Source of the DNA: a virus
DNA: 29,642 nucleotides
Reading direction: 5' to 3' (one strand)
IMG/VR virus record: IMGVR_UViG_3300029953_000121
Coordinates: 1-29,642 of that record
The notes under the pieces were generated by a model. It ran no database searches. It had not been told where the DNA came from and saw nothing but the letters and a program-made list of their open reading frames with translations. The translations under genes were made by a program, and so were the position numbers. The first letter of the stretch is position 1, and every line of letters begins with the position of its first letter. Shown here piece by piece: positions 6,211-20,610 of this stretch.

Positions 6211-6778
6211 GCCCCGCACCGGCTCCGGCCTCCGCTCACTCACGCGAGATGACATGGTCACGCTCCTCGGCCCAGCCCAGAAGAACTTGATCCTGAGCCC
6301 GGATAAGATCCGAGACTCTCACCACATGGTCGCGCGTTACGCCGCCCGGGGGATGAAGAACATCGAGATTGCCGATGCCACTGGTTATTCCGCAGTCCGT
6401 GTCGGCACCATCCTCCAATCCCCGGCGATGGCCGACCTTGTCTCAAAGTACCGTGACATGGTTGACGAAGCCTTCCGCGCCGAGGCCAAAGAAGACTTCG
6501 ACATGGGGCGGTCTGCTTGGCGCAAAGCCCAGCGCCTCCGTCTTGACAAACTCGAGGCCGCGGAATGTGGCGAGCTCGACATCTCCCTCCGCGAACTCAA
6601 CTCAATTGCGATGGATGGCGAGGACCGCTACGGCACCTCGAAGAAATCCACCAACATCAACCTTAACGCCGACTTCGCAGCGGAACTCGAGGCCGCTCTT
6701 GCTCGTTCCAACCGCGCCGTGGATCACAAGATCATCGAAGTCGAAGCCACGCCTGACGGCATCCGGAGACGTGTTTAA
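6203..6778 (+). CDS. terS: Terminase small subunit (likely)
   Basis: This 191-aa protein has a helix-turn-helix-like segment at residues about 41-75 (MVARYAARGMKNIEIADATG, then YSAVRVGTILQSPAM). That pattern is typical of phage small terminases, which recognise packaging DNA and pass it to the large subunit. A long charged helical middle (about 78-140) would suit the oligomerisation core, and the end (DGIRRRV) is basic. The ATG at 6203 overlaps the nuclease-like gene. Its stop overlaps the next ATG as TAATG. The assignment rests on the HTH pattern and on position. A GTG start at 6164 is possible but unsupported. Confidence 0.75.
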   Translation: MAKPRTGSGLRSLTRDDMVTLLGPAQKNLILSPDKIRDSHHMVARYAARGMKNIEIADATGYSAVRVGTILQSPAMADLVSKYRDMVDEAFRAEAKEDFDMGRSAWRKAQRLRLDKLEAAECGELDISLRELNSIAMDGEDRYGTSKKSTNINLNADFAAELEAALARSNRAVDHKIIEVEATPDGIRRRV

Positions 6779-8343
6779 TGCGTAAGTTCCTCACCCTACT
6801 CCTCTGCTTACTCGTCACCCCAGTCTCCGCGCAGTCATGGATCGCGAACGCGCCGAACCAATCAATCCCATTTAACAATAATGGCTATCTCGGCTACATC
6901 AACTGGACCAACGGCTGTATTCTGACTTATCAAACCGGCACCGCTTCTGGCACAACCGGTGGTTTTCCTGTCTGTACCACCGCGGCGATCACCGCCTCCA
7001 TGCTTGCTCCTGGTGCGGCGGCGGCGAATCTCAACGCGGGGGGGCTGCTCAAGCCGTCCATCACCTCCGCCCGCACACTCGCGATGCTTGGCGACAGCAT
7101 AACATTTAATGTCGACGACGCGAACTTGACCAACGGTCCCTGCGTGGGCCTTTCCTGCGAGGCCTACGGATACGGCGGGTACGGAACATGGGCGTCGGTC
7201 TATTCTGGCTATCGCGTTTGGCGGGCGCCGAATACCGGGAATTGCGGGGAATCAGGGGGGACCATCGCGCAAATTCTCGCTAACATTTCCTGCGTCACCG
7301 CTTTAAACCCGGACGTGGTTATCTATGAGGGCGGCGGCAATGACCCTGGCTCTGGCTCGACCTGCGCGAGCGCGACGGCAGCCAACCGCGCGATCTATTC
7401 CGCGTTCAAGGCGGCCGGAATTGCTGTTATCAAGGTCGGGATTTATCCGCGCACCTCTCCGGTTGCCTTCACGACATCTCAAGCATCTATCGCTCAATGC
7501 CTCAACATGGAGGACCGGCGCTATGCGCAAGAGGTTGGCGGCGCTGGCTGGTATTTTGTTGATGTAGAACCGATCATGGTTGATCCGGCGCAAACAGGTT
7601 CATGGGCGACCCGGAGCGGCTACATGCTGGCGGATGGCGCCCACCCGTCAACTGTTGGATCGTCGGCAATCGGCTACGCCATCGCGCAAGTATTGAACCA
7701 GCTTTCCCCGCCGTGGCTTTACCCGTCCTATTCTGCCGCTGATCTCTATGACGCCACGAACAATGTTGGCGGGAATCTGCTCACGAATGGCCTCTTTACG
7801 GGCAGCGGCGGCAGCGTCGCGACCTGTTCGGGGGTGAGCGCGACAAGTTGGACGCTGGCGACGGGTGGCCTCGGGGGCGGAACGTGTGTGGGCGCGGTCA
7901 GCACGAGTTCTGACGGGCGTCCGATCCAGACCATCACCCTTGGAGGAACCTCAACCGGGTCTAACCTCAGCCTTGTTCAATATCAAGGCGTCGGTACGCT
8001 CTCCAATATCTCGGCTGGGGACACGCTTGAGGGGGGCGTTTGGGTCAACTGGTCGGGGCTATCTCCGGCTGTTGCTGGCCTTTGGGTCCAGCTAAAAACC
8101 GTAGAGGGCGGACAGACCTACACCTATGGGGGGATGGTGCCAAATACGGGCGTGGCCTTCCCTGCGTCAAACCCAGCGGGAAGCGCCTATGTCCCCATCA
8201 TCACCACGCGGCGCACGGTAACGGCGACACCCACAACAGCAGAGCTTGATGTGTCGGTCGTTCTCATTTCGCTTACTTCATCCTCGGCGCTGACCGGCGT
8301 CATTTCGATGCAAGGCGCGTGGATTAAGAAGGTCATCAACTGA
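6778..8343 (+). CDS. Exported SGNH/GDSL hydrolase with a C-terminal beta domain
   Basis: This 521-aa protein begins with a Sec signal peptide (MRKFLTLLLCLLVTPVSA, cleavage before Gln19). SGNH blocks are clear: GDS (105-107, Ser107 the nucleophile), GGGND (185-189) and DGAH (286-289, Asp286 and His289). Such enzymes remove acetyl or other ester groups from polysaccharides or peptidoglycan. Residues about 330-521 are Gly/Ser/Thr-rich and beta-like, resembling a carbohydrate-binding module. The gene sits between terS and terL, a position normally without such genes, and overlaps terS as TAATG. It may act on host surface glycans after export or from the virion. The substrate is unknown. Confidence 0.85.
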   Translation: MRKFLTLLLCLLVTPVSAQSWIANAPNQSIPFNNNGYLGYINWTNGCILTYQTGTASGTTGGFPVCTTAAITASMLAPGAAAANLNAGGLLKPSITSARTLAMLGDSITFNVDDANLTNGPCVGLSCEAYGYGGYGTWASVYSGYRVWRAPNTGNCGESGGTIAQILANISCVTALNPDVVIYEGGGNDPGSGSTCASATAANRAIYSAFKAAGIAVIKVGIYPRTSPVAFTTSQASIAQCLNMEDRRYAQEVGGAGWYFVDVEPIMVDPAQTGSWATRSGYMLADGAHPSTVGSSAIGYAIAQVLNQLSPPWLYPSYSAADLYDATNNVGGNLLTNGLFTGSGGSVATCSGVSATSWTLATGGLGGGTCVGAVSTSSDGRPIQTITLGGTSTGSNLSLVQYQGVGTLSNISAGDTLEGGVWVNWSGLSPAVAGLWVQLKTVEGGQTYTYGGMVPNTGVAFPASNPAGSAYVPIITTRRTVTATPTTAELDVSVVLISLTSSSALTGVISMQGAWIKKVIN

Positions 8344-8420
8344 CGGCGCGCAACCCAAAGACAACAGTTGCGCCGGTGAGGTGCACCTATAACGGCACGA
8401 CTTATTCCTGGGTATATTGA
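8340..8420 (+). CDS. Possible 26-codon frame between the SGNH gene and terL
   Basis: A frame open from 8328 reads ..TARNPKTTVAPVRCTYNGTT then YSWVY and stops at 8418-8420, overlapping the terL ATG as TGATG. No ATG is available. A CTG at 8340, seven bases after AAGGT, or a GTG at 8376 could initiate. The sequence looks protein-like and the stop/start overlap matches the style of this phage. It could be a real micro-gene or the remnant of a gene broken by the SGNH insertion. A hairpin (8344-8375) lies in the same bases. Confidence 0.28.
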   Translation: MTARNPKTTVAPVRCTYNGTTYSWVY

Positions 8421-9922
8421 TGGCAATTAACCCCGATTTCCTCACATGGCTAGCATCCTGCAACAAGGCGCCGCTGCGTTTTGTTCTCGGTGCTTTCCCT
8501 TGGGGCACCGGGCCGCTTAAAAAGTTCACCGGCCCCGAGTCATGGCAGGTTGAGATCCTCAACGCCGTAGGCACTGGTCTTGTCTCCCTCAACGACGCGA
8601 TTAAAATCGCCAGGGCTTCCGGCCACGGCATCGGCAAGTCCGCGCTGGTTAGCTGGCTTATTCTCTGGGCTTTCACTACCGCCCCGGACACCCGCGGGGT
8701 AGTCACCGCCAACACCGAGACGCAGCTTAAAACCAAAACATGGGCCGAGCTTGGCAAGTGGTTTAACCTGTTCCTCGGCCGCGAGCATTACCAACTCACC
8801 GCCACGGCTCTCCTCTCCCGCGATCCCTCGCGCGAACGCACATGGCGTATCGATCAGGTCCCTTGGTCCGAGAAAAACCCCGCCGCCTTCGCGGGCCTTC
8901 ACAACCAAGGCAAACGCATCCTCCTCGTCATGGACGAAGCCTCCGAAATCCCCGACACCATCTGGGAAGTTGCGGAAGGTGCTCTGACCGATGCTGACAC
9001 CGAAATCCTCTGGTTCGCCTTCGGCAACCCCACGCGGTCACTCGGCCGGTTCCGTGACTGTTTCGACGACACCGGTCACGGCAAGTACTGGAACTCGGCG
9101 CAGATAGATTCCCGCACCGTCACCTTCACCAACAAAGAACTCTTCAATCGCTGGGTCGATGCTTACGGCGATGACTCCGATTTCGTCCGTATCCGCGTCA
9201 AGGGCATGTTCCCGCGCCAAGGCGAGATGGAGTTCATCTCCGCGTTCGAGGTAGACACCGCGATGGGGCGCGAGGCCGAAGCCGCGCTCTCCGATCCGAT
9301 CGCTCTCGGCTGTGACGTGGCTCGCTATGGCGCGAACGAATCCGTCATTGCTTTCCGCCGGGGCCGCGATGCCCGCACAACCCCTTGGGAGTTCTACCGT
9401 GGCGTTAACACTGTCGAACTCGCGGCGAAGATCTCCTCTGCCAACGGCACCCATTCGGCCGACGGCATCTTTATCGATGGAGGCGGTGTCGGTGGCGGCG
9501 TGGTCGATAACGTTCGTGCCTTGGGGCTTCATTGCTGGGACGTGCAATTCGGCGGAGCAGATGATGTCGGTGGTGCTACCACCGGGAACGCCGGTGAGGT
9601 GTACGCAAACAAGCGCGCTGCGATGTGGGGCGCCATGCGGTCCTGGATTCGTGCCGGTGGGGCGCTTCCTCATGACCCGGACCTCCGGACTCAACTAATC
9701 GCCCCGACCTATGGCCTCGACGCCAAAGGTCGGATCCAGCTTGAAAAGAAAGAAGACATGATGCGGCGGCTTGGTTCTGATCGGTCCCCTGACCGCGCCG
9801 ATGCTCTCGCGTTGACCTTCGCTTACCCACTCCAATCCCGCGCCCAGACCGAGGCCTTCGGCCAACGGACCGGCTGTGAATTCGAATACGATCCTTACTC
9901 CGAGAAAAGGATGCATGCTTAA
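8420..9922 (+). CDS. terL: Terminase large subunit (ATPase and nuclease)
   Basis: This 500-aa protein is the motor that packages DNA into the prohead and cuts it. Walker A is GHGIGKS (68-74), Walker B is ILLVMDEAS (167-175, Asp172/Glu173), and a coupling-type FGNP follows at about 201. The nuclease domain has GCDVARYG (Asp299), FIDGGGVGGGVVD (Asp353) and DRADAL (Asp461), the acidic triad of the RNase H-like fold. The size is normal for the family. The ATG at 8420 is preferred over the TTG one codon upstream. No strong ribosome-binding site is seen, so coupling to upstream translation is likely. The stop overlaps the next ATG as TAATG. Confidence 0.95.
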   Translation: MAINPDFLTWLASCNKAPLRFVLGAFPWGTGPLKKFTGPESWQVEILNAVGTGLVSLNDAIKIARASGHGIGKSALVSWLILWAFTTAPDTRGVVTANTETQLKTKTWAELGKWFNLFLGREHYQLTATALLSRDPSRERTWRIDQVPWSEKNPAAFAGLHNQGKRILLVMDEASEIPDTIWEVAEGALTDADTEILWFAFGNPTRSLGRFRDCFDDTGHGKYWNSAQIDSRTVTFTNKELFNRWVDAYGDDSDFVRIRVKGMFPRQGEMEFISAFEVDTAMGREAEAALSDPIALGCDVARYGANESVIAFRRGRDARTTPWEFYRGVNTVELAAKISSANGTHSADGIFIDGGGVGGGVVDNVRALGLHCWDVQFGGADDVGGATTGNAGEVYANKRAAMWGAMRSWIRAGGALPHDPDLRTQLIAPTYGLDAKGRIQLEKKEDMMRRLGSDRSPDRADALALTFAYPLQSRAQTEAFGQRTGCEFEYDPYSEKRMHA

Positions 9923-10137
9923 TGACTCACATGTTCGCGCCACACACTACCGCGGCGGCTCCTATCGTGGTGAACCCAACCCCGACGCCCTCGCAGGTCA
10001 TCACCCCGAGCCAAGCCCCTGTCCAAGGTTCGACTCCGGCTGGCGGCTCTACTCCGTCATTCCTTGGCTCTTCGGTCATGCCCCCACAGACCCCCGGCGG
10101 TTCGCCGAGTAACCAAAAGAAACTTCTCGGCTCATGA
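9922..10137 (+). CDS. Pro/Thr/Ser-rich small protein after terL
   Basis: This 71-aa low-complexity protein begins MTHMFAPHTTAAAPIVV and is rich in Pro, Thr, Ser and Gly with PTPTPS-type repeats. It ends NQKKLLGS. It appears disordered and has no hydrophobic segment. Similar short proline-rich proteins lie between terL and the portal gene in other podoviruses. Their role is unknown. It overlaps terL by one base (TAATG) and the next gene by four bases (ATGA), so it is embedded in a translationally coupled chain. Confidence 0.75.
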   Translation: MTHMFAPHTTAAAPIVVNPTPTPSQVITPSQAPVQGSTPAGGSTPSFLGSSVMPPQTPGGSPSNQKKLLGS

Positions 10138-10316
10138 AGATCCCCGCGGCTAGAGGCCACCAACCACAGCAAGCAACGCCGGTCCCCGCGGCTTACCTCG
10201 CCATGGCCGCGGCGCATATGCAATCCATGGGCAAGCCGGTGGTTGATCCCAACGCGCCGCCCTCCCAAGACCAACTCGCCGCCGCAGTAAAGGCTCCCAA
10301 TGCGACAGGTAACTGA
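10134..10316 (+). CDS. 60-aa Ala/Pro-rich small protein before the portal
   Basis: The product begins MKIPAARGHQPQQATPVPAA. It has one likely helix (AYLAMAAAHMQSMG, about 20-33) between proline-rich ends. The ATGA overlap with the upstream gene and the 17-base overlap with the portal gene support it being translated. The ribosome-binding site of the portal gene (AAAGG) lies inside its last codons. No family is recognised. It may be a minor virion or assembly protein, judged only from position. Confidence 0.7.
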   Translation: MKIPAARGHQPQQATPVPAAYLAMAAAHMQSMGKPVVDPNAPPSQDQLAAAVKAPNATGN

Positions 10317-12018
10317 AGCCGACCAGCGCTATCGGCGTTATGTCGAATCTCTAATCATCGGGATGCGGAACAACCGTTACTCGTGGTGGACGCATTGGCG
10401 CGAGTGCGCGGATTACTTCATGCCGCGGCGCTACCGCTGGCTGATTACGCCCAACCTTCAAAACCGCGGCTCGCCGGTCAACCAACACATCATTGATTCC
10501 ACCGGCTACCTCTGCGCGCAGAACCTCGCCTCGGGCTTGATGTCAGGCAAAGTCTCGCCGATTCAGCCGTGGTTCGGGCTCACTGTAGGCAACCTCGACT
10601 CCACCGAAACCTCGCCCGCTTCGCTGTGGATGGCCGAGTGTGAACGCCGGCTCCGGATGATCTTCGCGGAAGGTAACTTCTACCCGTCGATGGCGCAGTA
10701 CCTGATGGACCTCGTGGTCTTCGGTACCGCCACAATGTTAATCTACGAAGACTTCGAAGACGTGATCAATTGCCGCGTCCCCTGCGCCGGTGAGTACTAC
10801 GTCGATCTCGACGGGCGCTACCGCCCGAGCATCCTCGCGCTTGAGTACACCCAAACCATCCGGCAGGTTGTGGACGAGTTCGGGATTGAGAACGTTTCCG
10901 ATTCCGTCAAGCAAGCCTACCACCTACCCAACGGCGCCGGGCTCACTCGCGAGATAGTTCTCGCCCAGATGATTGAGCCTAACAATGATGGCCGGAAGTT
11001 CGGGGTCCCGGAGCATTTTAAATTCCGTGAGTGTGTCTGGGAGTGGGGCGGCAGCGCTAGCCCCCAAAACAACTCCGGCGACAACCGCGGGTTCCTTCGC
11101 AAGGCTGGTTACTTCGAACAGCCCAACATCACCGCTCGCTGGTACGTCACCTCCAACGACCCGTACGGCCGAAGTGCCGCCATGGATGCTCTCGGCGATC
11201 AGAAACAACTCCAACTCGAATCCCGCCGAAAGCAACAAGCCATCGACAAGATGGTCAATCCGCCGCTTGTCGCGGACATCCAACTCAAAAACAAACCCAC
11301 GTCCCTCCTCCCCGGCGGCATGACCTACGTCACCGGCTTCGCTTCCACCGGCCGCGCCGGGATCGCGTCTGTCTACCAGTCCCAATTCCCGGTCGGTGAA
11401 ATCTCCAAAGATCTGGAGGAAGTCCGTGAGCGTCTCAAACTTACTTTTTTCAATCATCTCTTCCAGCCGATCTCCCAATTCGAAACTCGCTCTAATGTTA
11501 CTGCGGTCGAGATACAGCAACGTAAAGCTGAGTCACTCATTATGTTGGGACCGGTCTTCGAACGTCTGGACAATGAGTGTCTACGACCGATCATCGAACG
11601 AGTGTTTGCTATCGCTAAGCGCGCTGGCCTCATCCCACCCCCTCCCCCGGAACTCGCTGGACAGGAGATGACGGTTAAGTTCGTCTCCATGCTTAAGCTC
11701 GCGCAGGACTCCACCGACGCCGTCGCGATCCAAGAAGTCCTCGCGATGGCTGGTAACTTGGCTGGTGTGGATCCTACCGTCATGGACAACATCGACGTCG
11801 ATTTTGCGCTTGAGCGATTTTCCGAGCTCAAAGGCAACGACCCGCGGATGATCCGGTCGCCTGAGGCCCTTGCCGCTCTCCGCGCCAACCGCGCCAAGCA
11901 ACAGGCCGGCGAACAACAAGCGGCTCAAGCCCAGCAACTTGCGATGGGTGCGAAGACGTTGTCCCAAGCTGATGTTGGCGGCGGGCGTAACGCGCTGCAA
12001 GCAATGACAGGAGGTTAA
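10300..12018 (+). CDS. Portal (head-to-tail connector) protein
   Basis: This 572-aa protein matches the head-to-tail connector family of T7-like phages: an N-terminal RYRRYVESLIIGMRNNRYSW segment, then WRECADYFMPRRYRWL, an SGLMSG segment and a long central domain. A Gln/Ala-rich tail (about 525-560) precedes the end. The portal forms the dodecameric ring at one capsid vertex through which DNA is packaged and ejected. AAAGG lies seven bases before the ATG. The length is typical for the family. It is followed at once by a 31-aa membrane peptide whose GGAGG overlaps the portal's last codons. Confidence 0.93.
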   Translation: MRQVTEADQRYRRYVESLIIGMRNNRYSWWTHWRECADYFMPRRYRWLITPNLQNRGSPVNQHIIDSTGYLCAQNLASGLMSGKVSPIQPWFGLTVGNLDSTETSPASLWMAECERRLRMIFAEGNFYPSMAQYLMDLVVFGTATMLIYEDFEDVINCRVPCAGEYYVDLDGRYRPSILALEYTQTIRQVVDEFGIENVSDSVKQAYHLPNGAGLTREIVLAQMIEPNNDGRKFGVPEHFKFRECVWEWGGSASPQNNSGDNRGFLRKAGYFEQPNITARWYVTSNDPYGRSAAMDALGDQKQLQLESRRKQQAIDKMVNPPLVADIQLKNKPTSLLPGGMTYVTGFASTGRAGIASVYQSQFPVGEISKDLEEVRERLKLTFFNHLFQPISQFETRSNVTAVEIQQRKAESLIMLGPVFERLDNECLRPIIERVFAIAKRAGLIPPPPPELAGQEMTVKFVSMLKLAQDSTDAVAIQEVLAMAGNLAGVDPTVMDNIDVDFALERFSELKGNDPRMIRSPEALAALRANRAKQQAGEQQAAQAQQLAMGAKTLSQADVGGGRNALQAMTGG

Positions 12019-12019
12019 C

Positions 12020-12115
12020 ATGGGAAATATCTTTGAGGCTATCGGGTTGGGATTGATCGCGCTCGGGATTCTGGGCGTGATTGGTTATCTCATCATCTCT
12101 ATTATAGAGTCTTGA
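12020..12115 (+). CDS. 31-aa single-span membrane peptide
   Basis: The product begins MGNIFEAIGLGLIALGILGV and continues IGYLIISIIES: one hydrophobic helix with an acidic end. GGAGG is five to six bases before the ATG, one of the strongest ribosome-binding sites in the window. It starts two bases after the portal stop and ends one base before the next ATG, so it is part of the structural operon. It is the fourth one-span micro-protein of this phage. A membrane-associated role during assembly or ejection is conceivable but unproven. Confidence 0.72.
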   Translation: MGNIFEAIGLGLIALGILGVIGYLIISIIES

Positions 12116-12116
12116 G

Positions 12117-12521
12117 ATGGACAACGCAGCCTCCCGGAAAGAAATCCGCCGGAAAGAAAAAGACGCCCGGCTTGCGGAGAAGACTCGCGGCGGGGTCACC
12201 ATCGATCTCATGTCCACCAAAAACGGCCGGGGCTACGTTTGGGATCAACTAACCGCGGCCCACGTATTCTCTACCTCCTACGCACCTGACGCCTTGCAGA
12301 TGGCTTTCGCGGAAGGCGAGCGGAACTCAGGACTACGCCTACTAAACGACATCATCGAATGGTGTCCGGAGCAATTCATTCAAATGATGAGGGAACAAAA
12401 TGAGCGAAGCACCATTGATCACAGAGACGCCGGTAACGACGACGGAGGCCCCGAGTCCTTCCCAGACGACGACCCCGCCGACGACGGAATCCTCCCCGGC
12501 CACGACGTCTACGACGTCTGA
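12117..12521 (+). CDS. Bbp19-like phage protein with an acidic C-terminal extension
   Basis: This 134-aa protein matches, from memory, the Bbp19-like family found between portal and scaffold in BPP-1-type podoviruses: GRGYVWDQLTAAHVFSTSY (about 38-56), FAEGERNSGLRLLNDI (about 64-79) and a terminal MMREQNE. The function is not established. The family core ends near residue 95. Residues about 96-134 are an acidic tail (PDDDPADDG), encoded out of frame with the start of the scaffold gene over 122 bases. It begins one base after the stop of the 31-aa gene. The ribosome-binding site is weak, so coupling is likely. Confidence 0.82.
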   Translation: MDNAASRKEIRRKEKDARLAEKTRGGVTIDLMSTKNGRGYVWDQLTAAHVFSTSYAPDALQMAFAEGERNSGLRLLNDIIEWCPEQFIQMMREQNERSTIDHRDAGNDDGGPESFPDDDPADDGILPGHDVYDV

Positions 12522-13101
12522 CACGACTCTTCTGAATCAGGAAGAGCCGGTTGCCGAAGCCGCCGCTCCTGTCGTCCCGGAAACCTACGCCGATTTCAAA
12601 CTCCCCGAGGGCCAAGCTATCAGCCCCGAGCTCCTCGCTGAGGCCACGCCGATCTTCAAAGAACTCGGCCTGACTCAGGACGCGGCGCAGAAGCTTGTTG
12701 ACTTCTATGCAAAAACCAACGCGGCCGGTATCGACAAACTCTTCAACGACCAACGCGCGGTCCGTCAGGAATGGGCGACGGAATCCAAGACCTACCTCGA
12801 CGCGCTTCCGGGCGGGATCAAGCAGGCCAAGGCCGATCTCTCCGCAGCCAAAAACGCCCTCTTTGCCGGTGCCGATGGAGTCCCCAACGCCGAAAAGATC
12901 ACGCAGTTCAACCGCTTCATGGACATGACCGGCGCCGGAGACAACCCACTGTTCATCGAAGCCTTCACCAAAATGGCGAAGCTTTACACCGAAGGCAAAC
13001 CCGTCACCGGCGGCGGGCCAAGCAAATTCGGCCAGCAGGGCCCCGGGTCGCGCCCGACTGCTGCCGGTGCACTTTACCCCAATCTCACAGGCCAGCCGTA
13101 G
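12400..13101 (+). CDS. Capsid scaffold protein (likely)
   Basis: This 233-aa protein has a Thr/Pro/Ser-rich disordered first 55 residues. A helical core follows with DFKLPEGQAISPELLAEATP and IFKELGLTQDAAQKLVDFYA (about 61-100), a widespread scaffold pattern in short-tailed phages. The end is Gly/Pro-rich (GGGPSKFGQQGPGS). Scaffolds guide prohead assembly and then leave or are degraded. It lies directly before the major capsid gene, the expected place. The start has GAGGGA six bases upstream and no other Met until the C-terminal third, so the long overlap with the preceding gene cannot be removed by moving the start. Confidence 0.85.
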   Translation: MSEAPLITETPVTTTEAPSPSQTTTPPTTESSPATTSTTSDTTLLNQEEPVAEAAAPVVPETYADFKLPEGQAISPELLAEATPIFKELGLTQDAAQKLVDFYAKTNAAGIDKLFNDQRAVRQEWATESKTYLDALPGGIKQAKADLSAAKNALFAGADGVPNAEKITQFNRFMDMTGAGDNPLFIEAFTKMAKLYTEGKPVTGGGPSKFGQQGPGSRPTAAGALYPNLTGQP

Positions 13102-13107
13102 ATACGG

Positions 13108-13136
13108 TTGACAGGCTAGGGCCCAGATGGTTAGTG
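13108..13136 (+). promoter_or_regulatory. Possible promoter before the major capsid gene
   Basis: A perfect -35 TTGACA (13108-13113) is followed 16 bp later by GTTAGT (three of six) or 17 bp later by TTAGTG. The -10 is poor, so this would need an activator or be weak. It is the only sizeable gap (64 bases) in the head genes and lies directly before the most highly expressed gene expected in the operon. Confidence 0.32.
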
Positions 13137-13165
13137 AGCTCCACCCCAACTAAGGAAAACAACTT

Positions 13166-14209
13166 ATGGCAACGATTGGTAACACGGCCCTAACCTACGC
13201 TGACTGGGCCAAGCGCGTCGATGATGGATACAAGATCGCGACGATCATTGAGATTCTTTCTCAGACCAACGAAATCCTCGACGACATCATGGTCGTCGAA
13301 GGCAACCTGCCGACGGGTCACAAGACCACGATCCGTACCGGTCTCCCGCAGGCCACTTGGCGCCTGATGAACACCGGCGTCCCGAACGCGAAGTCCACCA
13401 CCGGCCAGATCGTCGACACCTGTGGTAACCTCGAAACCTACGCGGTTATCGACAAGGACATCGCCGATCTGAACGGCAACACCGCTGAGTTCCGTCTCTC
13501 GGAAGTCCGCGCGTTCCTCGAAGGCATGTCGCAGCAGGTCGCCTCCACGATCATCTACGGCAACCAAGGCGTGAACCCGGAACGTTTCACTGGCTTTGCT
13601 CCGCGTTACTCCACCAAGAACACGGCCAACTCGCAAACCGCGAACAACGTGCTTGACGGCGGCGGCACGGCCTCGACCAACACCTCGATCTGGATCCTGA
13701 CTTGGGGCAACGACACGTGGCATGGTATCTTCCCGAAGGGCAAGATGACCGGCCTCCAACACATCGACATGGGCGAGTGGCCCGTCGCCGATACCTCGGG
13801 CAACACCTACCAAGCCTATCGCGATCACTTCAAATGGGAGATCGGTCTCGTCGGCCGCGATTGGCGTTACTGCGTCCGTATTGCGAACATCGATGTGACC
13901 CAGCTAACCGGCGTCTCAGCCGCGAATCTGCTCAACCTCCTCGTCCGCGGTCTCTATCGTCTGCCCACGGCGCCGTCCACTGCCGCTGCGGTTCAGACCT
14001 CCGACACCCCGGAAGTCCGCTCCGACATGGGCCGCACGGTTATCTACTGCAACCGCGTGATTCGCACCTACCTCGATCTGCAAGCGATGAATAAAACGAA
14101 TGTACTCCTGCAATTGAGCGAGTTCGACGGTAAAGTCGTTACCACGTTCAGAGGCATTCCGGTCAGAACTTGTGACGCGATATTGAATAATGAGGCGCAG
14201 GTAGTGTGA
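13166..14209 (+). CDS. Major capsid protein
   Basis: This 347-aa protein begins MATIGNTALTYADWAKRVDD. It carries the EILSQTNEILDDIMVVEGN and TTIRTGLPQATWRLMNTGVP segments typical of BPP-1/P22-like podovirus major capsid proteins. The end has the RVIRTYLDLQA and FRGIPVRTCDAIL pattern of the same family. These have an HK97-type fold. It forms the shell of the head. AAGGA is nine bases before the ATG. Codon use is very GC-rich, as expected for an abundant protein: one line counted by hand (13501-13560) has 38 G or C in 60. Scaffold lies upstream and the Bbp16-like gene downstream. Confidence 0.95.
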   Translation: MATIGNTALTYADWAKRVDDGYKIATIIEILSQTNEILDDIMVVEGNLPTGHKTTIRTGLPQATWRLMNTGVPNAKSTTGQIVDTCGNLETYAVIDKDIADLNGNTAEFRLSEVRAFLEGMSQQVASTIIYGNQGVNPERFTGFAPRYSTKNTANSQTANNVLDGGGTASTNTSIWILTWGNDTWHGIFPKGKMTGLQHIDMGEWPVADTSGNTYQAYRDHFKWEIGLVGRDWRYCVRIANIDVTQLTGVSAANLLNLLVRGLYRLPTAPSTAAAVQTSDTPEVRSDMGRTVIYCNRVIRTYLDLQAMNKTNVLLQLSEFDGKVVTTFRGIPVRTCDAILNNEAQVV

Positions 14210-14254
14210 GTTTTCCAGCGACTTCGCTGAACTAAATTGAAAGGTAAACATGAT

Positions 14255-14812
14255 ATGATCATTGACGGATTCTTCCTCTTCACTGGCACGTCGAACGGCG
14301 CCTCGGGCGGTATTACTTCCACCGCCAATACCGACGCACCGACCATCGGCACTCAGGACTCCTCGAACATCGTGGATATCGGCGTTAAATCCGGCGTCCC
14401 GTCCTCGGCTGCTGGCGGCGGCGCCCGCGATCTCGGCATCGGCGACAAGCCGGGGCTTAAGGTCCTGATTCAGGTCACCACGGCTTTCACCGGCGGTACC
14501 TCGTTGCAGGCTCAGATCCAAGGCGCGCCGGATAACGGCGTGGGCGCTCCCGGTACGTGGTACCCGTTCTGGACTTCGCAGGCGATCGCGGAAGCTGCTC
14601 TCCAACCCGGCGCCGACATCGGCAACATCTTCATGCCGCAGCCGGAACCAGGACAGCCCATGCCGCGATTCCTAAAAGTCACCTTCATCTCCGTCGGTAC
14701 CCACACCGCCGGTCAGGTCGAAGCGGCGATCGTTCTCGATCAGATCTCTCAGGTCCAGTCTGCTACAGGCCAACTCTCCGGCTATCCCGCCGGCCTCACC
14801 GTCGCGAACTAA
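14255..14812 (+). CDS. Bbp16-like capsid-associated protein
   Basis: This 185-aa protein begins MIIDGFFLFTGTSNG. It contains SNIVDIGVKSG (about 37-47), LGIGDKPGLKVLIQV, and a C-terminal PRFLKVTFISVGTHTAGQVE, matching the Bbp16-like family that follows the major capsid gene in BPP-1-type phages. BPP-1 has a cement-like protein at this position, so a stabilising shell role is likely by analogy. The ATG at 14255 is used. An upstream in-frame TTG at 14237 would add six residues but lacks a ribosome-binding site at a good distance. An ATG at 14250 runs straight into a stop. Confidence 0.85.
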   Translation: MIIDGFFLFTGTSNGASGGITSTANTDAPTIGTQDSSNIVDIGVKSGVPSSAAGGGARDLGIGDKPGLKVLIQVTTAFTGGTSLQAQIQGAPDNGVGAPGTWYPFWTSQAIAEAALQPGADIGNIFMPQPEPGQPMPRFLKVTFISVGTHTAGQVEAAIVLDQISQVQSATGQLSGYPAGLTVAN

Positions 14813-14825
14813 GGAGTACCCCGCT

Positions 14826-15470
14826 ATGACTCTCAAGAAACTTCTCCTTGGGGCTGTGGCGGGGGCGCTCTTCGCGTCCTCGGCCGTGGCTCAGGTTAAC
14901 TTCGTTCCGCAGGTCGGCGTGACCTCCGGTTACGGCGCCAAGGCCACCTACTCCTCGGCGTTCTTCGGTCTCGTCCCGCCGGCCTCGGCTACGGACGTGG
15001 TCTGCATCGCGGCTTCGGCTTCGAAAACGATCCGCGTTCAGCGCCTTGTCATCGGTGGTACGGGTACCGCGGTCTCGCTGCCGATTCAGGTCCTGCGCCG
15101 TGCAGCCCTCGATACCGGCGGCACGATCGGTCTGACCACAGCCAACCCCGGCATTGTCACGCAGATCTCCTCGCGTGATACTAACGCGTCACCCAACCTC
15201 TCGGCCTCGGCGGCGTTGGTTTCCTACACGGCGGTTCCCACGATCAACGACGCGGCCCCTGTCTATGTTGACTCCGGCCTCCTCGGCGTTGTGGCTACCA
15301 CCGTCGGCACCCCCACCCCGCAAACGGTCTTCGATTGGGGTCGTGATACCGAGAACCTGATCCAGACCCCGACTTTGGCCAAAGGCTCCACGCAGCAACT
15401 CTGCGTGAATTTCGGCGGCGTCTCCACGACCTCGTCGCTCAATGGCCAGATCACTTGGACCGAAGAATAA
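14826..15470 (+). CDS. Exported beta-rich protein, function unknown
   Basis: This 214-aa protein has a clear Sec signal peptide (MTLKKLLLGAVAGALFASSAVA, cleavage before Gln23). The mature part is Thr/Ser/Ala/Val-rich and beta-like, with few charges and two Cys (near residues 60 and 193) that could form a disulfide in the periplasm. AAGGAG lies upstream of the ATG and the gene follows the Bbp16-like gene by 13 bases, so it belongs to the capsid operon. Phage virion proteins rarely have signal peptides. It could be a surface modifier or a periplasmic superinfection-exclusion factor. Neither is shown by the sequence. Confidence 0.82.
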   Translation: MTLKKLLLGAVAGALFASSAVAQVNFVPQVGVTSGYGAKATYSSAFFGLVPPASATDVVCIAASASKTIRVQRLVIGGTGTAVSLPIQVLRRAALDTGGTIGLTTANPGIVTQISSRDTNASPNLSASAALVSYTAVPTINDAAPVYVDSGLLGVVATTVGTPTPQTVFDWGRDTENLIQTPTLAKGSTQQLCVNFGGVSTTSSLNGQITWTEE

Positions 15471-15487
15471 CCTGAAAGGCAGCCATC

Positions 15488-15940
15488 ATGTTCAAACATC
15501 TTCTACTTGCCTTGTGCGTGGTGGCTGGCCTCTGGTCGCCCACCGCCGCGGATGCTCAGGCCATTGGCGGGGCCAACACCATCATCTGTAACAAGACCGC
15601 GGTCTTCTCCGGAGTCACCGGGGTTACCTCGCTCATTGCCGGAGTCGCGGGTAAAATCATCTCGATCTGCGGCTGGCATGTAACCTCGAACTCGGCCACC
15701 GCGGCTACCTTCCAGATCACCTCCGGCACCCAGACCACCACCGCTTGCGACACCGGCACAGTCAACATCACCCCGGCGCTTAGCATCCTCAACACCGCGC
15801 CGTCGGCTGATCACATCGACTTCGCTATCGCCTCCGCTGGTGCCCCCGGCATTGGTGGATCTGCGGTGTCATCCCCGGCGATCTGCGTCAACCCATCCAT
15901 CACCGGTATTTCCGGTCTCGTCTACTATTCCCAATACTAA
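15488..15940 (+). CDS. Exported Cys-containing small protein, function unknown
   Basis: This 150-aa protein has a Sec signal peptide (MFKHLLLALCVVAGLW then SPTAADA, cleavage before Gln24). The mature part has four Cys residues (ICNK, ICGW, ACDT, ICVN), enough for two disulfides, and a Ser/Thr/Gly-rich beta character with a GAPGIGGSAV turn. AAAGG lies 9-10 bases before the ATG. It follows the previous exported protein by 17 bases and looks like a second protein of the same style. No family is recognised. Disulfides would fit a folded periplasmic or surface protein rather than a cytoplasmic capsid part. Confidence 0.82.
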   Translation: MFKHLLLALCVVAGLWSPTAADAQAIGGANTIICNKTAVFSGVTGVTSLIAGVAGKIISICGWHVTSNSATAATFQITSGTQTTTACDTGTVNITPALSILNTAPSADHIDFAIASAGAPGIGGSAVSSPAICVNPSITGISGLVYYSQY

Positions 15941-15952
15941 CGGAGAACTACC

Positions 15953-16507
15953 ATGGCCCGCTGGCGCCTGACACAGAAGCATTACCTCAACGTCCCCGGT
16001 ACTGAGTTCGAGTACCGCGAGACCACCCACTACGGAAAGCAGATTAAAAAGAACTTCCCGGTCCCGATGTATCTCGATCCCGAGAACCCCGGCGATTGTA
16101 ACTACAACCAAGACGGCGAATCGCGCGCGGGCAATGCCAACACCCCCGGCGAGATCATCGTGGCTTGGGCCGATGGCACCGAGAAGCCCCGGGACATCAT
16201 CTTCACCGGTTCACCTACCCTCGACATGGTCCCGCTTGACGACGCTGCCCGCGCTGCCTCGGCCGAAATGTCCGGTGGTTGGGGCAGGGCGTTCATTGGC
16301 GAAGACGACGAAGAAGGTGGCTACACCAACCGCCTCCTCCACGAACTCACCGAGACCCTGAACTCGTTCAACGGCACGGCTAAGCCTTCCTCGGCGGTTC
16401 CCGATGACAACCGGATCGCGGGGCTCGAAGCGCAGGTCAAGCAGATGCTTGAAATGAATCTCGCGCTTGTTGCCAAGCTTGAGCCCACGAATAGCAAAAG
16501 GATCTAA
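15953..16507 (+). CDS. Conserved podovirus protein, function unknown
   Basis: This 184-aa protein begins MARWRLTQKHYLNVPGTEFE. It continues with EYRETTHYGKQIKKNFPVPMYLDP. I recognise this opening from hypothetical proteins of other short-tailed phages, where it lies near the capsid genes. A GEIIVAWAD strand (about 66-74) follows, then an acidic FIGEDDEEGG stretch. The C-terminal 35 residues form a likely coiled coil (AGLEAQVKQMLEMNLALVAK), suggesting oligomerisation. GGAG lies nine bases before the ATG. Function unknown. Confidence 0.82.
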   Translation: MARWRLTQKHYLNVPGTEFEYRETTHYGKQIKKNFPVPMYLDPENPGDCNYNQDGESRAGNANTPGEIIVAWADGTEKPRDIIFTGSPTLDMVPLDDAARAASAEMSGGWGRAFIGEDDEEGGYTNRLLHELTETLNSFNGTAKPSSAVPDDNRIAGLEAQVKQMLEMNLALVAKLEPTNSKRI

Positions 16508-16510
16508 CCC

Positions 16511-16912
16511 ATGTTCACTTCCGGCGGTGGCGCCTCGCCAGTCGGCCCTACTTCGGGCGGAAAGGTTTATGCCTTCAACAACGTAGGTACATCGCCGGAA
16601 GTTGTGGCTCCGGCCAATTCCAAACGTACGGTGATTACTTTTGATAACCCCGGTGCGGTAGACGTGATTGTCTTTCCTGTGTTAGCGCAGGCGGTCAATC
16701 CAACATGGACCGCGGCTACCAGTCTTGACTCAGGCGCAACCAGTATCTCTAATGTCGCTTTGACTCCCACAGCCTTACTCCTCGGTGGTGGCTATCGTAT
16801 CTACGGCAACGGCGGAACGCGGACATTCTCCGGCGAGTGCCAAGGCGCGTGGCAGGCTCTCGCGATCACCGGTTCAGGCAACGCATTGACCGTAACGGAT
16901 TCAAACATATGA
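16511..16912 (+). CDS. Beta-rich small protein before the tailspike
   Basis: This 133-aa protein begins MFTSGGGASPVGPTSGG. It then reads as alternating strands (RTVITFDNPGAVDVIVFPVL and TALLLGGGYRIYGNGG), suggesting a jelly-roll-like fold as in small head-decoration or fibre-associated proteins. It follows AAAGGATCTAACCC, the same 14-base leader style used by three early genes. Its TGA overlaps the tailspike ATG as ATGA, so it is translationally coupled to it. A structural accessory of the tailspike is the simplest reading, but it is not proven. Confidence 0.78.
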   Translation: MFTSGGGASPVGPTSGGKVYAFNNVGTSPEVVAPANSKRTVITFDNPGAVDVIVFPVLAQAVNPTWTAATSLDSGATSISNVALTPTALLLGGGYRIYGNGGTRTFSGECQGAWQALAITGSGNALTVTDSNI

Positions 16913-18501
16913 GAAAGCTCTTCCTCCTACTCTCTTTGCTTTGGGCCACTACAGCCTCAGCACAATATGCAACTACGGCCCCTACTCGGCCCACCGGAGA
17001 TAATTCCAACGCGATCGCGACAACGGCGTTTGTGTCAAATCATAGCGCTGTTGAATTACCTGCGGCAACCACATTGCAACTCTACGCGGGCAGCGGCGTT
17101 GCTGGTGTTGCCTCTGTCTTCACGCCCGGCACCAATGTCATGGCGGCGTTACAGGCATCTATAAACGCCTCTGGTGGTTTATCTAATGTTTCCGGAGCAA
17201 TAACTGCTGGTAACTGCCTTCGCTGGGGGCCGGGGATACAAGATGCTGGCGCGGCCTGTGGTGCGGGCGGTGGTTCTGGCACTGTTGCCTCAGGCACTAA
17301 AGGGCAATTCTCTTACTACGCTGCAAACGGTACAATGGTTTCCGGTATCTTTGGTTGTTTACCAATCGAGGCTTACGGCGGAAGCACAGCAAACTCCGAC
17401 AACACCACAGCTCTTGCGGCAGCCTTCGCGGCCTTACCCACCAATGGTGGTTGTATTTTATTCGGCCCGGGTAAGTACACCTTTACTTCGAATAATACCC
17501 TTACACTACCTGCCGGAACGTTGAACTTTAATCTTACTCTGAGTGGGACTGGTAAGGAGGTCACGACGCTTTATTGGGCGTCAGCGATAAGCAACGCTTT
17601 AACCATCGCCCTCAACGCCTCTGCGCATACAGCAACCGTGCGTGACATGACGTTTGCTACAGGCGCCGTGGGCGGTGGTACGGCGTTGAATATCACACAG
17701 TCTGTTTATGAAACCTTCGCGCCTACTACGATAGAAAATGTGGTGTTTCGTGGTGTGGATGGGATCAGTGTTGCTGATTATTGGAATATCGGTGTTAATA
17801 TATTAGGCCTTTCCAACACCCGATTTAACAATGATGACTTTTATGGTACCGGCACGACTGGCGTTGGCGCATGGATTGCGGGTGTCAATGCCGGTGGTTA
17901 TTCCTTTAGTGCAATATTTACCAATTGCGGCTGGTGGGCACAGAATGTCGGCGTTCTTTACGGAAGCTATGTTCAGGACATTCAGATCAGTAACTCAACT
18001 TTCGGCGGCAACACGTTTGTTTCTACCAATGCCGGCGAGCTTGGCAGTCTTCTTGCATTGGAGATTAGCAACAACCAGATCAGTGCAAATGTTTACGGTC
18101 TTTCGCTTGCGACAGGAGTTGAGCAAATACAGGTTTCAAATAACCTGTTCTATATTCAGCCTAATTACGTAGGTGTTTACTGTTTAGCTTGCCAAGGCGG
18201 AACTATCACAGGCAATGTCTTTTATAGCGCCCCCGGCACACCATCATCCAATGTTGGCGTTTATGTTGGTACATCAGCAGGGTCTATGCCGATGATGATC
18301 GCGGGCAATACATTTTATCAATTAGCGAATGGCATAAATTTAGCTGCTGGGTCAAGCCAAGTCACGGTTACAGGCAACGGCTATTACGGAAACACCAACG
18401 CTTACCTCAATTCCGGTACAGGCAATGTCGTTGGCGCGAGTTGCTCCGGAACCCCGTCGACTAACTTCTTTGTACTCAACGGTATGGTCACGCATTGTTA
18501 G
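16909..18501 (+). CDS. Tailspike-like beta-helix protein with a signal peptide
   Basis: This 530-aa protein begins with a signal peptide (MRKLFLLLSLLWATTASA, cleavage before Gln19). RPTGDNSNAIATTAFVSNH (27-45) follows, a motif common in phage tail fibres. Residues about 150-520 show parallel beta-helix features: TFNNDDFYGTG-like turns and repeated ISNSTFGG, ISNNQISAN, VSNNLFY and ITGNVFY strands, as in pectate-lyase-type polysaccharide depolymerases. Such tailspikes bind and cut host surface glycans. Three Cys lie in the last 125 residues. Its DNA is more AT-rich than the capsid gene: lines 17521 and 18301 have 28 and 25 G or C in 60. A tailspike with a signal peptide is unusual. Confidence 0.82.
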   Translation: MRKLFLLLSLLWATTASAQYATTAPTRPTGDNSNAIATTAFVSNHSAVELPAATTLQLYAGSGVAGVASVFTPGTNVMAALQASINASGGLSNVSGAITAGNCLRWGPGIQDAGAACGAGGGSGTVASGTKGQFSYYAANGTMVSGIFGCLPIEAYGGSTANSDNTTALAAAFAALPTNGGCILFGPGKYTFTSNNTLTLPAGTLNFNLTLSGTGKEVTTLYWASAISNALTIALNASAHTATVRDMTFATGAVGGGTALNITQSVYETFAPTTIENVVFRGVDGISVADYWNIGVNILGLSNTRFNNDDFYGTGTTGVGAWIAGVNAGGYSFSAIFTNCGWWAQNVGVLYGSYVQDIQISNSTFGGNTFVSTNAGELGSLLALEISNNQISANVYGLSLATGVEQIQVSNNLFYIQPNYVGVYCLACQGGTITGNVFYSAPGTPSSNVGVYVGTSAGSMPMMIAGNTFYQLANGINLAAGSSQVTVTGNGYYGNTNAYLNSGTGNVVGASCSGTPSTNFFVLNGMVTHC

Positions 18502-18517: not shown

Positions 18518-18940
18518 ATGAGCGACGAAGAGATCTATTTAAAACAAATCGCACGGGATATGCATGAAACTCTCTTGCATATACGCGAGGTCGTCAAGTA
18601 CATGAAAGATGCCGAGACTGAGGTTCCGGAAAAGATGCGCCGGTTCTTGATGTACTTTCATGACATTCATGACCTGCGGGATCTTTATCATCAGGGAGGG
18701 CAAGAACCGCCGGTCTACATCAGGCGCGAAATCGAGAAATGCGACGACCGACTTCGGCATCTTCTCGAGGATGCCTACGCAGACGGCGGGGCTTTTGAAA
18801 AGATCCGCCAAGAAATGTCGAAACGGTCTGGTAACAAATACGACCACACTGTTCTTTTAGCCTCACCAACGGAGCAAAGCAATGAAACAGGGAACGGGAA
18901 AGAAGACGACGGCGCCCAAGGAAGCCTCGAAGGTATTTAA
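18518..18940 (+). CDS. Charged helical protein, function unknown
   Basis: This 140-aa protein begins MSDEEIYLKQIARDMHETLL. It is almost entirely helical and charged through residue about 110 (IREVVKYMKDAETEVPEKMR, IHDLRDLYHQGG, IEKCDDRLRHLLEDAY). It then has a hydrophilic tail that overlaps the next gene by 59 bases. GAAGGAG lies 10-11 bases before the ATG, a little distant. An upstream frame extension to 18425 runs inside the tailspike gene and is not credible. The family is not recognised. It could be an adaptor or chaperone for nearby tail proteins, judged only from position. Confidence 0.8.
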   Translation: MSDEEIYLKQIARDMHETLLHIREVVKYMKDAETEVPEKMRRFLMYFHDIHDLRDLYHQGGQEPPVYIRREIEKCDDRLRHLLEDAYADGGAFEKIRQEMSKRSGNKYDHTVLLASPTEQSNETGNGKEDDGAQGSLEGI

Positions 18941-19518: not shown

Positions 19519-20610
19519 ATGAACCTCTCCGGCATCGTTAACTTAGCCCTGCAAAAGATCGGTACCCGCACGACGGTTACCTCAGCGGAGCTTGCTGCAA
19601 ACTCAACCAACGAAGCGCTTCAGGCCAATATCGCGATCGCGACCACCCGCGATGAGTTACTCCGGCTTGCCCCTTGGCAGTGTTCAAAGGGCATGACGGT
19701 ATTGCAGTACATCACCTCGTTGCCGGGGACTCCTGAAAACCAATCAACCCCGGCGAACTTACTCAACTGGACGCCGGGGTTACCTCTTCCGCCGTGGTCT
19801 TATGAATACGGTTACCCTGTAGATTGCCTTCGGGCTCTCTGGATCGTGCCGCAGCAAAACACTGGCATGCAAGGCCCGGCGGTTTACCCGACCTCCACTA
19901 TGACAGGCTTTGCTTCGACATGGGGCGGACCGCCGATCAAGTTCGATGTGGGTAATGATAACTTTTATGCGGTGACCGCGGCGGTAGCTTCTGCTACTGG
20001 CGGCGGCTATGCAGTCGGCGATCAAATCACTCTCGCGCTGGGTCCGGTAACCTCACCACCGATTGGGGCGCCGGCCGTGCTTCAGGTCACTGACGTTGCG
20101 GGCGGAGGGATCATCACCTCTGTTGCGGTTGTGCCAGAAGTTCTTGGCGAAGACGTGCCGCAGACCGGTGCTTATTTCCAGCCCTTGTCTGGCGCGCAAG
20201 CACAAGGCTCGACTACAGGCTCTGGCTCTGGCGCTACATTTACCCTGACCTATACCGCGCTAGGTAACCAGCGGGTCATCCTCACCAACCAAGAATACGC
20301 GGTGCTTTCCTACGTTCGTCAGGTCACTGATCCAAATGTGATGGATCAGTTATTCATCAAAGCTTGGTATCATGTCCTCGCCGCGGCACTTGCGATGGCA
20401 CTCACCGGGGACAAGAGCCTCGCCAATGGCCTTATCCAAGTCGCCAATGGTTGTATTATTGAGGCTCGCGCGGTTGATGGCAACGAAGCCTTAACCACCA
20501 ACGATGTCATGCCTGACTGGCTTCGTTGTCGTGGCGTGGCTGATGCTGGTTATTGGAACATGGGAACTGGTTTCGGCTGGGACTCTGTCGGACTCTGGGC
20601 GGGGTATTGA
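19519..20610 (+). CDS. Tail tubular protein A-like adaptor with an inserted domain
   Basis: This 363-aa protein begins MNLSGIVNLALQKIGTRTTV and has TRDELLRLAPW (43-53), the start of T7 gp11-like head-to-tail adaptors. The matching end is ILTNQEYAVLSYVRQVTDPN followed by MDQLFIKAWYHVLAAALA (about 254-290). Between them an insertion of about 90 residues (155-247) carries TGGGYAVGDQITLAL and GGGIITSVAVVPEV, a beta-rich module. The core is about 200 aa in simple homologues, so the insert explains the extra length. It forms a ring under the portal in the virion. Its position before the nozzle gene supports the call. Confidence 0.85.
   Translation: MNLSGIVNLALQKIGTRTTVTSAELAANSTNEALQANIAIATTRDELLRLAPWQCSKGMTVLQYITSLPGTPENQSTPANLLNWTPGLPLPPWSYEYGYPVDCLRALWIVPQQNTGMQGPAVYPTSTMTGFASTWGGPPIKFDVGNDNFYAVTAAVASATGGGYAVGDQITLALGPVTSPPIGAPAVLQVTDVAGGGIITSVAVVPEVLGEDVPQTGAYFQPLSGAQAQGSTTGSGSGATFTLTYTALGNQRVILTNQEYAVLSYVRQVTDPNVMDQLFIKAWYHVLAAALAMALTGDKSLANGLIQVANGCIIEARAVDGNEALTTNDVMPDWLRCRGVADAGYWNMGTGFGWDSVGLWAGY

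Follow-up and report, generated by a model that had tools for sequence, protein, structure and literature searches.

The particles of tailed phages are taught to be assembled wholly in the cytoplasm. The P22 tailspike, for instance, is a cytoplasmic protein that joins the particle last, which it can also do in vitro; likewise, lambda gpD and the T4 proteins Soc and Hoc bind completed particles in vitro. Phage proteins made with a signal peptide (SP) are known elsewhere: (i) the filamentous phage proteins pIII and pVIII have cleavable SPs and assemble during extrusion through the membrane; and (ii) the morons Lom, Bor, Cor and Sp bear SPs and act in the envelope. The present analysis deals with a linear fragment of 29,642 bases, which is the entire IMG/VR virus record IMGVR_UViG_3300029953_000121 (hereafter, the window), and with four of its genes whose products have predicted SPs: a putative SGNH hydrolase (gene 6778; genes are named by their first nucleotide), two predicted jelly-roll proteins (14826 and 15488) and a putative beta-helix tailspike (16909). 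We lean towards the reading that the split tailspike and the jelly-roll decorations would be exported, disulfide-bonded and joined to the virions after lysis.

Judged by its genes, the window encodes an epsilon15/BPP-1-like podovirus. It has both a GP7-type major capsid protein (MCP) and a Head-tail_con portal, which place it with the epsilon15-like phages, and it shares with them the adaptor, the nozzle and the internal virion proteins, in the same order (profile matches from Pfam for portal, MCP and nozzle, and from PHROGs for tail adaptor and internal virion proteins). But the portal is only about 35% identical to those of the isolates, and the interval from MCP to adaptor holds genes for a putatively exported spike and for decoration-like proteins. 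With P22-type tailspikes, the predicted spike shares a beta-helix receptor-binding or depolymerase body, a short conserved N-terminus and a variable C-terminus; unlike the cytoplasmic P22 spike, those of the clade come with an SP, with cysteine (Cys) pairs and with an SP-less partner encoded by a gene of its own. With the cement or decoration jelly rolls of KHP40 (7dou), Pam1 (7eel) and GP4 (8h89), the 14826 and 15488 proteins share the position of the gene next to that of the MCP and, in their models, a predicted jelly-roll fold, although the structural match is weak (Z 7-8) and those of the clade have SPs and predicted disulfides. The filamentous phage coat proteins are also virion proteins made with cleavable SPs, but they assemble during membrane extrusion, whereas the window comes from a tailed phage, whose head is cytoplasmic. 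Finally, exported morons are likewise phage genes with SPs, but they are not of virion type, while the genes of the window are part of the virion block, and their SP-less homologues are of virion type.

SPs were scored by a simple method that combines (i) a von Heijne-type weight matrix; (ii) a hydrophobic-core threshold; and (iii) a charge rule for the n-region. This method recovers 9/9 known SPs of E. coli. Within the window, exactly four of the 27 genes were called, and these are the open reading frames (ORFs) in which an earlier note on this DNA had claimed Sec SPs; they are present as described, and the matrix predicts an SP for each. All four have a basic n-region, a hydrophobic core and small residues at -3 and -1, as in Sec substrates of signal peptidase I, and their cores are strongly hydrophobic (Kyte-Doolittle mean over the best 8 residues, 2.3-3.5). 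The start codons are credible, given their Shine-Dalgarno-like stretches and, at 16909, an ATGA overlap. The predicted cut sites (marked by a slash) are VSA/Q for 6778, AVA/Q for 14826, ADA/Q for 15488 and ASA/Q for 16909. The earlier note had described A-x-A followed by glutamine (Gln) in all four; three of them do have A-x-A with Gln next, but 6778 has V-x-A, and there the matrix marginally favours SAQS/W, two residues later.

The note had also suggested a search for relatives. Locus L002, with a portal identical to that of the window, carries the same four SP genes, and SP slots recur across a clade of metagenomic contigs whose loci partly overlap in ancestry. Among the relatives, SPs were called in none of the core genes (portal 0/59, scaffold 0/41, terS 0/40, MCP 0/38) and in most members of four small post-capsid families (7/12, 9/12, 8/9 and 7/9), nearly all the remaining members of which bear an SP by eye. 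A larger set again gave no calls for portal (0/50), MCP (0/74), scaffold (0/60), adaptor (0/48), nozzle (0/39), the 16511 family (0/51) and the 15953 gene (0/71). SP occurrence in the post-capsid families is far above chance. Of 32 loci that reach from MCP to adaptor, among them a few near-duplicates, 26 have a small SP gene and 23 a large one in this interval. Gln directly follows the cut in 122 of the 154 SP proteins of the clade and is rarer (6/16, a small sample) in those of two arbitrary alphaproteobacterial genomes. Three SP calls in TerL were rejected, as they came from implausible alternative starts, and some permissive calls were false, arising from internal methionines within long fibres.

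Exported bacterial proteins avoid odd Cys counts (PMC7678975). In the clade, Cys were counted for 168 loci, non-redundant at 60% identity, scoring Cys-containing proteins. The count was even in 129/144 mature SP proteins (90%), vs. 72/183 (39%) for core and 123/253 (49%) for other SP-less proteins; the Fisher test of SP vs. core proteins gives p = 5e-22, which is only indicative, since the representatives partly share ancestry. Cys density per 100 residues is 1.70 in SP proteins vs. 0.65. Single families point the same way. In the 14826 family, both conserved Cys occur in 39/42 SP-bearing representatives (37 SPs called; L178 and L190 by eye) and in 0/8 SP-less homologues, the pair being absent from three distant SP-bearing members. 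The family tree puts a clade with SP and Cys pair (L211, L214) next to SP-less members (moderate support); a single event is thus an unlikely source of the association. In the 15488 family, Cys34 and Cys61 have been lost together in L026, which keeps Cys87 and Cys133. As regards the tail-fibre motif of the spikes, in relatives Cys occupies the positions of the first Ala and of the Ile of NAIATTAFV: the Cys pair is present in 49/50 SP-bearing proteins (six SPs by eye), while 8/8 SP-less fibres have Ala/Ile there. This comparison is fair, since the second site could be either C or I under the search pattern; another 80 SP-less motif loci, all without Cys, were left out because the patterns that found them demanded A/I. 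The even-Cys bias and the Cys pairs point to passage through an oxidising compartment, and Sec export of the SP proteins of the clade is thus strongly, if indirectly, supported by their sequences. It also appears, as the earlier note had proposed, that the SP tailspike leaves the cytoplasm before virion assembly.

The match of 16909 to the NosD family lies just above the Pfam cut-off and was taken as beta-helix similarity, copper binding being rejected. In six relatives of 44-51 kilobases, no second fibre or spike was seen in the regions read, which covered the structural block; opposite-strand, replication-like genes follow the internal virion proteins. By gene content, these six nearly complete relatives have no recognisable receptor-binding gene other than that of the SP spike. 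Sister phages have SP-less fibres in the spike slot (L022, L033, L039 and, by position, L028), three of these four matching PHROG tail fibre or spike families. In L022 (and, by eye, also in L033), the SP-less fibre is in one piece, with a domain designated c17 at its N-terminus. In the SP phages, an SP-less gene of the c17 or the 16511 family stands by itself directly before that of the spike. The mature N-termini of the spikes are of two kinds: (i) TRPxGD..STAFV (T-type), preceded by the 16511 family in 38/38 typed, distinct cases (three untyped cases and one without an upstream ORF are left out); and (ii) QCNGVFP..VCGN (Q-type), preceded by c17 in 12/12. The association of spike type and upstream gene type gives p=8e-12. 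The N-terminal motifs have a median identity of 81%, a conservation partly built into the search, and C-terminal similarity is seen in only 4% of pairs; a conserved N-terminus with a variable C-terminus resembles attached receptor-binding proteins. In sum, the sequences support the SPs, their conservation, the Cys pairing and the partner specificity.

The cassette of 16511 and SP spike is also found on L089, L092, L095 and L107, contigs without similarity to the portal and capsid of the window (the major head protein of L089 is phrog_9953, unlike the capsid family of the window); the cassette therefore seems to move between phage lineages. Separately, the spike frame is open for 24 codons upstream of its ATG (16837-16909), over the 3' end of 16511, and longer open stretches precede the spike in L092, L104 and L105. 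It is conceivable that a frameshift joins 16511 to the spike.

The products of 14826 and 15488, whose genes follow the capsid genes in the window, are predicted to resemble capsid decorations. Their AlphaFold models (predicted local distance difference test, pLDDT, of 72 and 71, respectively) are beta sandwiches whose best PDB matches are viral jelly rolls (Z 7.8 and 8.7, similarities no closer than a shared fold). The 15488 model matches the KHP40 cement protein (Z 7.8) and the capsid chains of GP4 (7.3) and Pam1 (7.1). In L209, an SP-less 14826 homologue lies directly after a P22-type MCP gene, a position that fits a head-surface role.

Taken as a whole, the proposed assembly would proceed in two compartments. 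The products of the four SP genes would be outer phage parts that are extracytoplasmic and disulfide-bonded: decoration-like jelly rolls (14826, 15488), a tailspike (16909) and a companion hydrolase (6778). These would be made late, exported by Sec, cut just before Gln and folded oxidatively, with disulfides, in the periplasm. At the same time, the head, filled with DNA, would be put together in the cytoplasm with its portal, adaptor and nozzle and with the SP-less 16511 partner. Lysis would mix both pools; the spike would then dock, through its short conserved mature N-terminus, onto a tail that bears the partner, and the jelly rolls onto the capsid. Cleavage, virion membership and post-lysis docking are the steps that we infer, and docking is chemically reasonable given the in vitro binding of tailspikes and decorations in other phages. 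More generally, we give an even chance to the reading that the virions of a tailed-phage clade are finished beyond the cytoplasm, with periplasm-matured, disulfide-bonded decorations and spikes plugging, at lysis, into SP-less sockets of particles built in the cytoplasm. A search of the open-access literature turned up no exported tailspike or decoration in a tailed phage, an absence of little weight; as far as found, two-compartment assembly appears undescribed for these phages.

Several points weigh against this proposal: (i) the motif Cys pair is lost from the spike of the window, the sole SP protein of 50 with A/I at those positions, and the Cys count of this spike is odd (9); (ii) a tblastn search of cultured phages with the spike, a Q-type spike, 15488, 14826 and an SP-less homologue of 14826 gave no match; (iii) the fold matches to cement and decoration proteins are weak; (iv) overlapping genes may be transferred together, which could account in part for the match between spike and upstream gene; (v) in some sister phages the decorations are exported while the fibre is not, which indicates that SP use is per protein; and (vi) post-lysis docking in a dilute medium may be inefficient.

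The main rival, which we regard as unlikely, is a free secreted enzyme cocktail: spike and SGNH hydrolase, released in soluble form, would clear capsule or extracellular polymeric substances around the lysing cell and the jelly rolls would bind polysaccharide, none of them being in the virion. Beta-helix and SGNH domains are typical of polysaccharide-acting enzymes, the 15488 model also matches CBM36/CBM6/CBM22 folds (Z 6.5-7.3), and export itself is supported by the even-Cys bias. This keeps alive the release of free depolymerase contemplated in the earlier note, although the genes look like virion parts. But a free cocktail leaves complete relatives without any recognisable receptor-binding protein; besides, the conserved N-terminus with variable C-terminus, the shared tail-fibre motif and the strict pairing with an SP-less partner mark attached spikes. 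Less probable still is dual targeting by partly effective SPs, the cytoplasmic fraction going to virions and the exported one acting as free depolymerase. It would reconcile SPs with virion-like features, and in-frame upstream start extensions do exist (a 554-residue frame from 16837), but the SP cores are strong, not marginal, and the even-Cys bias and motif Cys pairs imply an oxidised functional form.

A programme directed at the host envelope, in which exported decoys or receptor-masking proteins block superinfection or alter the surface, is very improbable. SGNH enzymes can deacylate surface glycans. Other phages do export proteins of envelope type, e.g., Lom of lambda (PMC12309495). However, the SP proteins gave no match to known exclusion-protein families in Pfam, PHROGs and NCBIfam, the genes sit in the late virion block, and the missing SP-less spike and the partner pairing would be left unexplained; neither envelope modification nor a superinfection block, both raised in the earlier note, has positive evidence in its favour. 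Its last option, uncleaved hydrophobic N-termini serving as virion attachment or membrane anchors without export, is scarcely credible: some tailed-phage proteins use hydrophobic N-termini, but the canonical c-regions, the frequent Gln at +1, the even-Cys bias and a pattern that spans unrelated protein families, with SP-less homologues lacking the Cys pair, speak against it. Since the spike is the only receptor-binding candidate, its SP-less partner is paired with it and the 14826 and 15488 proteins have predicted, decoration-like jelly-roll folds, post-lysis assembly explains more than these earlier options.

If true, post-lysis assembly would mean that virions are not complete until the cell lyses or later, that spikes depend on the Sec and Dsb machinery of the host and that co-infecting phages could exchange spikes; it would change the view of tail assembly, disulfide-based spike stability and host specificity. 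In addition, a sequence rule (SP, even Cys count and a paired SP-less partner gene) could be used to find receptor-binding proteins missed by annotation in viromes. The features of the window are collected in Table 1.

Table 1. Positions of the features discussed in the window (SP, signal peptide; the slash marks the predicted cut).
Feature	Position	Strand	Basis and remarks
Putative SGNH/GDSL hydrolase, 521 residues	6778..8343	+	PF13472 9e-15; phrog_6102 lipase 3e-36; SP call
Predicted SP of SGNH hydrolase, 18 residues, MRKFLTLLLCLLVTPVSA/Q	6778..6831	+	SP scoring
Portal protein	10300..12018	+	PF12236 2e-122; without SP; lineage anchor
Major capsid protein, GP7 family	13166..14209	+	PF20911 6e-132; without SP
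Conserved post-MCP gene, phrog_427	14237..14812	+	PHROGs; without SP
Putative exported jelly-roll protein, 214 residues, SP, Cys60/Cys193 pair	14826..15470	+	SP scoring, structure model, Cys positions
Predicted SP of 14826 protein, 22 residues, MTLKKLLLGAVAGALFASSAVA/Q	14826..14891	+	SP scoring
Putative exported jelly-roll protein, 150 residues, SP, mature Cys34, 61, 87, 133	15488..15940	+	SP scoring, structure model
Predicted SP of 15488 protein, 23 residues, MFKHLLLALCVVAGLWSPTAADA/Q	15488..15556	+	SP scoring
Conserved SP-less gene between SP genes	15953..16507	+	0/71 SP
SP-less spike partner, candidate 'socket'	16511..16912	+	0/51 SP; strict pairing with T-type spikes; ATGA overlap with spike start
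Putative exported beta-helix tailspike, 530 residues	16909..18501	+	NosD-type beta-helix 1.6e-5; SP; tail-fibre motif
Predicted SP of tailspike, 18 residues, MRKLFLLLSLLWATTASA/Q	16909..16962	+	SP scoring
Tail-fibre motif APTRPTGDNSNAIATTAFV, mature N-terminus of spike	16978..17034	+	Motif search
Conserved SP-less gene closing spike slot	18521..18940	+	Loci of relatives
Tail adaptor	19519..20610	+	phrog_394; without SP
Tail nozzle	20614..23421	+	PF25675; without SP

The 6778 hydrolase keeps the catalytic blocks of its family (GDS105, GGND186 and DGAH286, for GDS, G-x-N-D and D-x-x-H) and its mature part has 10 Cys. It occupies the slot between terS and terL, a second SP slot in which L003, L005 and L006 have other SP genes; the families found there differ (SGNH, 765 residues, 236+442 residues, 184+363 residues). 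The 14237 product is probably a cement protein.

Portals closer than those of the isolates were found on 61 metagenomic contigs. Matches in the host search were confined to contigs of metagenome-assembled genomes (MAGs), including one of Telmatospirillum (portal, 84%). Query A2 had no match in 385 genomes of the class of Telmatospirillum, in a search without a positive control, and the spike query A1 was not found in two MAGs. Our guess is that the host belongs to the Alphaproteobacteria.

Some relatives have signals like those of the twin-arginine (Tat) pathway (L089:2207-2599, a gene of 874 residues in L162, L043:16937-17119 and L052:4372-4851), an example being MATRRDFIVGSLASLAAIPSLSTA on a gene directly after that of the MCP; some parts may thus be exported folded. 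In the TerL gene of L008 (1350-2975), the frame is open for about 26 codons upstream, which would add a Tat-like extension MDMNRRQLLTGVGAVALAGGASSTSA; this start is odd and probably unused. Tiny SP genes (63-77 residues) with two Cys recur in L144, L162 and L208, the mature part ending like CNGTIDLSSGCVQPMLGGL. The nozzle contains an E1_FCCH-like stretch (residues 120-179, under the Pfam cut-off), perhaps an inserted module. Lastly, the cultured Burkholderia phage BgManors32 (L220:3959-5914, OK665842.1) encodes a tail protein of 651 residues (UEW68612.1) with a clear Sec SP, MKKIVFTLTAAFALLFSFVPRVAVAQ, and is a possible laboratory model for exported tail proteins.

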